Assembly (NCBI RefSeq): GCF_016595155.1
Contig: NZ_JAENGP010000010.1
Location: 62,001 to 126,000 of the forward strand
From: Advenella mandrilli
GTDB lineage: Bacteria; Pseudomonadota; Gammaproteobacteria; Burkholderiales; Burkholderiaceae_B
DNA: 64,000 bases
Reading direction: 5' to 3'
The notes under the pieces are model-generated. The model made no database searches and was not told the DNA's origin. It saw only the letters and a list, made by a program, of their open reading frames with translations. Numbering within the stretch: position 1 is the stretch's first letter; each line of letters starts with the position of its first letter. The translations under genes were made by a program, and so were the position numbers. Positions 34,545 through 45,893 of the stretch are shown here, one piece after another.

Positions 34545-34787
34545 TTACTGCTCATTGGCTTTAGTGACTTGATAATGTTGGCGATAAAATTCCCATTCTT
34601 CAATTTGTGTGCCATCGGGGAATTGGCAAATCCCATATTGGCCATTTTTTCCTTGCATGATAATAACTTTGCCGCCTTTTTGCTGGCAAAGCATTGACGC
34701 CGGGTTGGCCATTTCAATAGGTGCAGTAGCGGCACATGCTGAAAGCAGCAATACGCTAAAAACAGGATACCGTGTAAATTTCATCAT
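34545..34787 (-). CDS. DUF333 family lipoprotein
   Basis: The 80-residue protein has a lipoprotein signal (lipobox LLSAC, Cys18), then the DUF333 pattern: NPASMLCQQKGGKVIIMQGKNGQYGICQFPDGTQIEEWEFY. The domain has conserved Cys residues and a PDG turn. The family is common in proteobacteria, sometimes labelled putative hemolysin without good reason; its function is unknown. GGGAA precedes the ATG. Confidence 0.88.
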   Translation of the reverse strand: MMKFTRYPVFSVLLLSACAATAPIEMANPASMLCQQKGGKVIIMQGKNGQYGICQFPDGTQIEEWEFYRQHYQVTKANEQ

Positions 34788-34980
34788 AAATTCCCAATGC
34801 AGGCTTGCCTGATGTACGGTTAAATACCGGGCTTTCTGAACAAGCTGGGGGATGAAAAGATGCGATGTTCAGAAAGAAAAACGGTTATGCGGAAAAAAAG
34901 CTGATATATGAAAATAATAGGGAAGTTTTAACGGCAAGTAAAGAGAGCGGAATAAAGAATAGGCAGGATAAAGCAGGATA

Positions 34981-35015
34981 AAAAAAACGGACACATGGAA
35001 AGTCATGGTCCGTTT
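34981..35015 (-). terminator. Strong minus-strand terminator with no gene upstream
   Basis: Read on the minus strand, AAACGGAC at 35015-35008 is the reverse of GTCCGTTT at 34992-34985, with an inner CATG palindrome and then a run of T. No minus-strand ORF of note lies before it. It is interpreted as the end of the small RNA described at 34984-35045. Confidence 0.82.
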
Positions 35016-35045
35016 AAAAATCGGTGTTAGCCGACTACGGTGTAG
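34984..35045 (-). ncRNA. Candidate FNR-dependent small RNA
   Basis: On the minus strand a -10 hexamer TACAAT (35056-35051) lies 23 bases after a perfect FNR box, the class-II arrangement, predicting a start near 35045. The transcript would be about 60 bases. It has a short stem TCGG/CCGA around CTAACA, a T-rich linker, then the intrinsic terminator. The only start codon gives a five-codon ORF. This is a prediction from geometry; no known sRNA family is recognised. Confidence 0.5.
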
Positions 35046-35079
35046 ATTTCATTGTAAGGGTGTTTGTGGTTTTTTTATG

Positions 35080-35093
35080 TTGATATAAATCAA
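35080..35093. promoter_or_regulatory. Perfect FNR/ANR box
   Basis: TTGATATAAATCAA matches TTGAT-N4-ATCAA at every position. It centres about 42 bases before the predicted start of the minus-strand small RNA. A diverged copy of the same stretch lies about 80 bases to the right (35152-35183). Apart from these two elements and the terminator, 34788-35312 holds no gene I can support. Confidence 0.75.
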
Positions 35094-35312
35094 GGTCTTA
35101 TGGATGGTTTTAAATAAAACGGCAAATAGATATCAAGTTTTGTTTTGGGGTTGTTTTATGTTGAAATTATTAAGGTCTTTATGTTTTTATTTCAGGCAAG
35201 ATTGAAAATAGGGAAGATTAAAACAGGTATGATAATGCCCGAAAGACTCACACTCACTGCTTAAGCGTGTTTTGTGATAATAATAAATTATTCAGCAAAA
35301 TGGAATTTGAAA

Positions 35313-35684
35313 ATGATTGATGGATTGATTGCCGGCAAAATATTTGGGCAACCCAAGCAAGGCCAGGGTAAAAACGGCTCTTATGTCACGGCCAAGGTAC
35401 GGGCGGCTACAGAGCAGGACACTATATTTGTAAATGTTATCTGTTTTAACCAGCAGGCTTGCACGCAGTTACTTGCCTTGCAGGATGGTGACAGTGTCTC
35501 GGTTGCAGGGTCGCTTACACCCAGGGTATGGGACTCTCAAGATGGTCCCCGGCCGGTTCTGGATATGGTTGCGCATGCGGTGCTCTCGGCCTATCACGTA
35601 AAAAGAAAGCGTGATGAAGTTCAGGGCATGAGAAACCATGGCAGGCAGGAAGATTTTAATGATGACTTTGAAGGTGATCATTAA
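35313..35684 (+). CDS. SSB-like OB-fold protein
   Basis: From the ATG at 35313 the protein has 123 residues. It fits the single-stranded-DNA-binding OB fold: MIDGLIAGKIFGQPKQ, GSYVTAKVRAAT, IFVNVICFNQQACTQLLAL, GDSVSVAGSLTPRVW and LDMVAHAVLSAY. It is shorter than the replicative Ssb and lacks the usual acidic DDDIPF tip, though it ends in an acidic NDDFEGDH stretch. Such paralogues occur in Burkholderiales and on mobile elements. The longer frame to 35274 lacks a ribosome site; GGA before 35313 is modest. Confidence 0.8.
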   Translation: MIDGLIAGKIFGQPKQGQGKNGSYVTAKVRAATEQDTIFVNVICFNQQACTQLLALQDGDSVSVAGSLTPRVWDSQDGPRPVLDMVAHAVLSAYHVKRKRDEVQGMRNHGRQEDFNDDFEGDH

Positions 35685-42397: not shown

Positions 42398-42411
42398 TTG
42401 ATATAAATCAA
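42398..42411. promoter_or_regulatory. FNR/ANR box in the dctP-flhD intergenic region
   Basis: TTGATATAAATCAA is identical to the site at 35080. It lies 330 bases before dctP and 720 before flhD, in a 1065-base gap (42070-43134). On either strand the class-II position offers only a fair -10, so the target is unclear. The rest of the gap is extremely AT-rich (notably 42500-42760) and contains no gene I can support. Confidence 0.6.
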
Positions 42412-44309: not shown

Positions 44310-45893
44310 ATGCGTAAGAATTTGCCTGTTAACGATATTGAAACCCTGGTCCAGGATGACCAGTACCTCATCTCCAAGACGGATCTCAAGGGGCGGATTA
44401 CTTACTGTAATCCGGCTTTTGTGGAAATTAGCGGCTTCGCCAGGGAAGAGTTGATCGGCAAGCCCCATAATATTATTCGGCATCCTGATATGCCAGAACT
44501 TGCGTTCCGGGATTTATGGGAAAGTGCGCAAAACAGGAAACCCTGGATCGGTCTGGTTAAAAACCGTCGCAAAGATGGCGGTTTTTATTGGGTATTAGCC
44601 AACGTGACACCTATCTTTCAGAATAATGAAGTGAGTGGTTATGCCTCAGTCAGGGTCAAGGCCGATCCTGAAAGTATCGCCAAGGCCGAGACCTTTTACA
44701 GGCAGATTAATAATGGCGAGAAAATTCCTTATACGATCAAGCAAGGCCAGAAAGTGCCTTTGGGGATTCGTCGGGTATTTGCCCGCGTTAGCCGTATTTT
44801 TCAAAAAGGATTCGCGCCTGGTCTGATGAGGCTGGGATTGCTGTCGGTAGTGGGCATGGTGTTTCCGGTATGGGTGGCGGTTACACAAACGCAATTGCCG
44901 GGTGGTAACACAACGCTGTTTGGGATTATGGCTTTGTTTGTTTTGGCCATCGTGCTGCTGTCCATGAAGCTGGCCAGTCAGATCAAGCGGCCTATCGTTG
45001 GTGCGGCAGATATTATTCGCCAGATTTCAGCGGGCAACCTGAATAATAGCGTGGATTCAATTCCGAAAAACGAGATGGGTGAGTTGTATTACTTTCTGGA
45101 TATGATGCGAAAGGCGCTGATCGGCATTAGTGGAGAGGTTATGTCCGGTGCGGATGCCAACTCTATGATTGTAACGACATTGCAGAAAAACAGCCAGACG
45201 CTGGCCATGCAAACGGAAGATCAGGCGGCATCGCTGCAGGAAACGGCAGCCAGCCTTGAAGAGTTAACCGTCACCGTCAGGCAAAATGCCGAGAATGCGC
45301 GTTCAGCCAACACGATTGCCCTGGATGGATTGCGGGTGGCCGAAAATGGCAGTGACAAGGTCAATCAGGTGGTTCGCTCCATGGAAGAGATGAACGACAG
45401 TTCAAGAAAAATTGAAAGCATTGTCAAAATTATTGAGGATATTGCCTTCCAGACCAACCTGCTGGCGATTAATGCCAGTGTGGAATCAGCCCGTGCGGGT
45501 GAGGCCGGGCGCGGGTTTGGTGTGGTGGCCGCTGAGGTACGTAATTTATCTCAAAAAAGCTCTGAGGCCGCCAAGGAAATCAAGGCTTTGGTGCTTGCTT
45601 CGGTAGAGGACGTGACGCAAAGTTCGCGCCTGGCAGAAGAAGCGGGCAGTGTCATGAAAGAGATTATGGATTCGGTGCAGGGCATGGTGAATATCATGGC
45701 TGAAATTTCCACCGCATCGGTTGAGCAATCAAGTGGTTTGCAACAAATCAACCTGGCGGTTAATCAGATGGATAACGCCGTCCATCAGAACTCGGCGATG
45801 GTGCAAAACCTGTCACAAACCTCTGTCGAACTTGGGCAGCAGGCGCAAGAGCTCAAGCAATCCATTGGTGTGCTTAATAATATGCAGGGTTAA
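44310..45893 (+). CDS. aer: Aer-type PAS-domain methyl-accepting chemotaxis protein
   Basis: The 527-residue protein has an N-terminal PAS domain (about 12-115), a membrane hairpin (about 171-192 and 203-220), a HAMP segment and an MCP signalling domain with the tip near [20 protein letters not shown]. Arg57, His58 and Asp60 in IIRHPDMP fall at the positions of the FAD-binding residues in E. coli Aer, so it is probably an aerotaxis or redox sensor. The C-terminus (IGVLNNMQG) lacks the NWETF-type pentapeptide for CheR. It is the only receptor gene in the locus. Confidence 0.92.

Follow-up and report, generated by a model that had tools for sequence, protein, structure and literature searches.

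In the region between a DUF333 lipoprotein gene and a divergently oriented SSB-like gene of Advenella mandrilli, the minus strand likely carries a stand-alone small RNA gene that is activated by FNR and whose product acts with Hfq by pairing with mRNAs (Table 1). Judging from its sequence, it is probably a genuine FNR-activated sRNA of the Hfq type and represents a new sequence family. The region belongs to a stretch of 64,000 nucleotides, which was analysed as a whole and is referred to as the window. On the minus strand, the elements of the unit follow each other in the order FNR-type box, spacer, TACAAT hexamer, 5' region with a weak hairpin, U-rich linker, bulged hairpin and eight T residues.

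According to the mechanism proposed here, FNR carrying its iron-sulphur cluster would bind to the box at about -42 when oxygen is low, and would activate transcription from the TACAAT promoter in the manner of a class II activator. Transcription would yield an RNA of roughly 64 nt that has the bulged hairpin and the U-run at its end. The U-rich linker and the U tail of this RNA would bind Hfq, and mRNAs would be recognized through base pairing with the conserved 5' region UCUACACCGUAGUCGG, which would change their translation or stability.

Table 1. Features of the predicted sRNA unit and its surroundings (positions in the window).
Feature	Position	Strand	Remarks
DUF333 lipoprotein gene (PF03891)	34545-34787	-	ATG at 34787; downstream of the RNA
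Promoter-like pair	34942-34914	-	9/12; between sRNA terminator and DUF333 gene
Predicted small RNA, ~64 nt	34980-35044	-	start at 35044 to within a few bases, as placed by the -10
Terminator hairpin with one-base bulge	34985-35015	-	U-rich linker ahead of it; G+C part at 34988-35012, run of eight T at 34987-34980
Invariant 15-nt core CTACACCGTAGTCGG at the RNA 5' end	35031-35045	-	candidate base-pairing region, partly unpaired in folds
-10 hexamer TACAAT	35051-35056	-	TAGAAT in A. alkanexedens, TACAAT in the MAG
Spacer between box and -10	35057-35079	-	23 bases, equal length in three genomes; without -35 hexamer
FNR-type box	35080-35093	-	TTGATTTATATCAA as read on the minus strand; 10/10 in comparison to the consensus
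Promoter stretch repeated in degenerate form	35144-35183	-	75% identical, spacing 81 bases, without good box
SSB-like gene (PF00436)	35313-35684	divergent from RNA	ATG at 35313; 28.6 bits, just above the cut-off of 26

Predicted promoter, RNA and terminator

The box TTGATATAAATCAA at positions 35080-35093 agrees in 10/10 positions with the FNR box consensus TTGAT-N4-ATCAA. Its centre lies at -42.5 if transcription starts at position 35044, the canonical start inferred from the -10, and at -41.5 if it starts at 35045; an earlier note on this DNA had placed it 41 to 43 bases before the predicted start, which agrees with these values. With the box centred at about -42 relative to this inferred start, and with 23 bases between box and -10 in all three genomes that possess the unit, the arrangement corresponds to a class II FNR promoter. 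The same note had described a perfect box, TACAAT after 23 bases and a strong terminator near 34981, all of which were recovered when the sequence was read again and folded. The automated scans of the window list neither the sRNA promoter, which has no -35 hexamer, nor the bulged hairpin; the rule of the terminator scan names no bulge.

The RNA from 35044 to 34981 folds with -21.0 kcal/mol in comparison to -9.28 ± 2.54 kcal/mol for 200 shuffled sequences (z -4.61), and ORFs across the predicted RNA comprise at most 45 aa in the window. At the level of the sequence, it has the properties of a short untranslated RNA with an intrinsic terminator. An RNA of about 60 bases with a short stem and a terminator hairpin had been expected; the predicted length of about 64 nt fits this description, with a weak 5' hairpin and a bulge in the terminator. 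Upstream of the box, the degenerate copy of the promoter stretch is perhaps the remnant of a tandem duplication, whose box has decayed. A similar stretch is visible by eye in A. alkanexedens.

Boxes with at most one mismatch occur in the window at chance level (3 vs. 3.44 expected). Perfect boxes are present at two places, in comparison to about 0.14-0.16 expected from the simulation of 400 sequences of 64 kb, 200 with the local intergenic composition and 200 with the composition of the window (54 and 62 counts over both strands in the two sets of 200). A perfect box followed after 21-24 bases by a -10 with 5/6 or more matches occurred once in the 400 simulated sequences, and the combination of box, -10 and terminator never occurred; the window contains one. 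Since the candidate was singled out among all that had been noticed in this DNA, conservation is a stronger test than these counts.

Conservation of the unit in two relatives

A DNA search of 61 genomes yielded two strong matches besides the window, Advenella alkanexedens LAM0050 (E 3.0e-37) and the Alcaligenaceae MAG AS09scLD_384 (JAAYHN010000141; E 1.9e-13), which belongs to the same genus. Common to all three is the order of the DUF333 lipoprotein gene on the strand of the RNA, the RNA and the divergent SSB-like gene. The box matches the consensus in 10/10 positions in the window and in A. alkanexedens and in 8/10 positions in the MAG, always at the same position. In the MAG, only 13/23 bases of the spacer and 11/19 bases of the box with its flank are identical, yet box and -10 keep their places; the chance of a box with at least 8/10 matches at exactly this position is 0.0012 for the local composition.

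With the bounds of the segments chosen after the alignment had been seen, the 28 nt from base 35045 are identical in 28/28 positions in A. alkanexedens and in 26/28 in the MAG, and linker and terminator in 38/42 and 35/42 positions, respectively. This near-invariant 5' part of the RNA stands against flanks which are 55-74% identical overall (downstream 126/188 and 104/188; upstream 108/145 and 82/145). Between the -10 and the start, A. alkanexedens shares 5/10 and the MAG 8/10 bases with the window. The RNAs of both relatives also fold better than shuffled sequences (z -4.06 in A. alkanexedens and -4.94 in the MAG), and when the RNA of the MAG is folded by itself, its terminator persists although the arms are altered. 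In single-sequence folds the 5' hairpin differs, as two of the RNAs favour one stem and that of A. alkanexedens favours another. Counting of pairs in the three sequences revealed no covariation (0/18 pairs changed on both sides).

Because box, spacing, -10, core and terminator are kept while the surroundings drift, the FNR-controlled sRNA gene claimed in the earlier note is well supported, as far as sequences can tell, by the syntenic unit in two more genomes of the genus.

Alternative explanations

It is unlikely that the RNA is the 5' leader or attenuator of the DUF333 lipoprotein gene, with the hairpin as a conditional terminator. Although all three genomes have this gene downstream of the RNA and in the same orientation, the terminator is separated from its start codon by about 190 nt, and the promoter-like pair at 34942-34914 intervenes, which can also be recognized by eye in A. 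alkanexedens; chance alone produces many such pairs (9.9 expected, 16 found). On the strand of the RNA, the MAG shows by eye another terminator-like hairpin, also with a T-run, in the interval from the sRNA to the DUF333 gene (L003:1394-1423). Furthermore, another genome of the genus (G002) retains the DUF333 gene without the sRNA unit, and no antiterminator is suggested by the preferred single-sequence folds.

Somewhat less probable still is the explanation that the box belongs to the divergent SSB-like gene, or has no role, and that the hairpin is merely an intergenic terminator. The box is palindromic, and the SSB-like gene begins 220 bases from it; however, the plus strand has no good -10 at 20-26 bases, and G002 retains the SSB-like gene without the box. 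There is also no credible minus-strand gene upstream which the hairpin could terminate, and the best conserved part is the RNA core between box and hairpin.

A very small protein as the product of the stretch is highly improbable, although an ATG that by eye opens the frame MKSTP followed by a stop shares bases with the -10, a 45-aa ORF overlaps the 3' part of the RNA and longer ORFs extend across it in the relatives (L002: 84 and 87 aa; L003, the MAG: 76 and 103 aa), since this ATG is missing from both relatives, insertions in both of them shift the frame inside the RNA, and the overlapping ORFs of the different genomes are dissimilar to one another as judged by eye. The region had been described as free of any credible ORF, and this still applies, with 45 aa as the longest ORF in the window and no reading frame conserved in the relatives.

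Distribution of the predicted sRNA unit

The sRNA unit occurs in 3/10 genomes of the genus and in 3/268 genomes of the family. In the family genomes, the covariance model R1 gave 11 matches with E ≤ 0.1, three of which are the real unit; the other eight were rejected, as the core is absent (by eye). Among 399 genomes drawn evenly from the order, five matches with E ≤ 0.01 were obtained, of which one is the window itself and four, again without the core, were rejected. Both of these large searches were run with stricter filters that lose weak matches. A second SSB-like copy with 74% identity is located elsewhere in G002 and in the MAG. When R1 was applied without filters to 11 loci around DUF333 and SSB-like genes (G002, six other genomes of the genus and the second SSB-like copies of G002 and the MAG), no unit was detected, and two weak matches (E 0.27 and 3.4) were rejected for lack of the core. 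The exact core pattern was found in two records of genome contigs, both being the known relatives. It was additionally found in two viral contigs, in an apparent phage coding stretch with a model score of 20.3 bits, which was rejected as chance; the only record from the plasmid search is a DUF333 gene and was rejected as well.

In G002, both neighbouring genes are kept and about 400 bp including the sRNA unit are absent. With 93% identity, the SSB-like protein of this genome is closer than any other, and its DUF333 protein is 82% identical. As G002 falls among the carriers by these protein identities, a loss in G002 appears to be the simpler reading. The earlier note had stated that loss of box, -10 or hairpin in close relatives that keep the surrounding genes would speak against the sRNA. 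These elements are indeed absent from G002; however, the whole segment of about 400 bp is missing and not a single element, which points to gain or loss of the unit and not to decay of one element.

No family of Rfam was found over the sRNA stretch, either at the gathering score or with E values up to 10. The 4227 models searched presumably include enterobacterial FnrS. We give an even chance to the view that the unit is a lineage-restricted new family of FNR-activated sRNAs, which originated within the Advenella group with small genomes and separately from FnrS and AniS, so that this kind of regulation would have come about once more, and in which the exceptionally fixed 15-nt 5' core is the pairing site.

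FNR, Hfq and further boxes in the genome

An FNR-type regulator with the motif CxxCx5C is encoded in all four genomes read (A. mandrilli, A. alkanexedens, G002 and the MAG), and the regulator needed for an FNR-activated sRNA is thus present in them. The protein reached 225.7 bits with the NCBIfam Fnr model NF008365, just below the cut-off of 228. A gene for Hfq was likewise found in 4/4 genomes searched. Together with the U-rich linker and the U tail, to which binding is predicted, this corresponds to an sRNA of the Hfq type.

In the 3.28 Mb of the genome, 22 perfect boxes were counted, in comparison to 0 for the reversed pattern and to about 7 expected by scaling of the simulation, in which each palindrome was counted twice. 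Seven of the 22 fall inside ORFs of at least 100 aa. Nine proteins encoded next to boxes were scanned: azurin scored above its cut-off, five matched below the cut-off (OmpW-like, a partial copper-type P-type ATPase, a partial haem receptor, P450 and FabK-like), and three showed no family match. The gene of the P-type ATPase has TACTAT 22 bases from its box. Among the 44 box orientations, only the sRNA promoter and L066 (plus strand) have, 20-26 bases away, a -10 that matches in 5/6 positions. Part of this set of boxes looks like an FNR regulon; another part may not belong to it.

A second copy of the identical box is located in the window at 42398-42411, about 720 bases before two ORFs which we take to be FlhD and FlhC. 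These are followed by a chemoreceptor-like ORF at 44310. This box might suggest oxygen control of motility.

Search for target mRNAs

A pattern complementary to the core, with wobble pairs allowed, matched 7, 10 and 8 sites in the genomes of A. mandrilli, A. alkanexedens and the MAG, in comparison to 11, 14 and 9 sites for the reversed control. One site each in A. mandrilli and the MAG is the sRNA gene itself, and three orthologous pairs of sites exist besides the sRNA locus. An orthologous site 14 bases before a GTG was rejected, as it lies antisense inside a conserved frame of 374 residues, presumably one resembling a polysaccharide-export lipoprotein. A second pattern with one mismatch gave 73, 77 and 75 sites vs. 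79, 82 and 65, a slight excess in the MAG only.

Pairing with four sod leaders (shuffle fractions 0.42-0.88) and with the sdhC leaders of the three genomes (0.71, 0.21 and 0.67) was no better than that of shuffled RNA. From 128 crude ORF starts in the window, eight of the top 12 were tested against shuffles, with fractions of 0.068-0.32; this test left out the strongest of the top 12 (31775, antisense to a nitrite/sulphite reductase gene) and three others. In these limited searches of patterns, sod and sdhC leaders and ORF starts of the window, which cover a small part of the transcriptome and therefore carry little weight as evidence, no convincing mRNA target was found. An FnrS-like repression of mRNAs at low oxygen, as suggested in the earlier note, gains no support from them.

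Comparison with known oxygen-responsive sRNAs

In open-licence full texts of PMC, no literature was found on an FNR-controlled sRNA in Alcaligenaceae or on an anaerobic Fnr/Hfq sRNA in Burkholderiales, and the titles on small RNAs of Advenella in the same source indicate none about this RNA. If expressed as predicted, the RNA would therefore be the first FNR-controlled sRNA found in Alcaligenaceae, measured against this literature. It would also suggest that oxygen-responsive sRNAs evolve repeatedly under one promoter design, and would offer a small system for the finding of targets, including a natural relative without the unit.

Enterobacterial FnrS has a length of about 120 nt, and PhrS of Pseudomonas is under the control of Anr. 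Meningococcal AniS is reportedly Hfq-dependent and under FNR control (Fantappie 2011).

PaiI of Pseudomonas is an anaerobic, NarXL-dependent sRNA according to an excerpt of the respective paper (PMC5703892). Likened by description, PhrS and PaiI are, like the Advenella unit, sRNAs of oxygen limitation, and the regulator of PaiI differs. In E. coli, the class II FNR site of FnrS is centred at -41.5 (excerpt of PMC3032703). As far as these excerpts describe it, enterobacterial FnrS shares with the Advenella RNA the class II FNR site and the nature of an untranslated sRNA; it is longer than the Advenella RNA, and no Rfam family matches the Advenella unit. Superoxide dismutase is a named target of FnrS (excerpt of PMC8595263), whereas the Advenella RNA pairs with sod no better than shuffled RNA.

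Gonococcal FnrS is described as having a 5' stem-loop and a 3' intrinsic terminator behind a -10 and a predicted class II FNR site, the construct with the whole RNA reaches +111, and anaerobic induction was measured (excerpt of PMC3032703). AniS is the meningococcal homologue of this RNA and is made under oxygen limitation (excerpt of PMC4176332). Like the Advenella unit, FnrS/AniS of Neisseria are betaproteobacterial and, in the excerpts, combine a class II site and a -10 with a short RNA that has a 5' stem-loop and a 3' terminator. Set side by side by description, they are alike in design; Neisseria FnrS runs to +111, whereas about 64 nt are predicted for Advenella. The Advenella unit shares the design of FnrS and AniS, a likeness of predicted function and of the layout of the elements.
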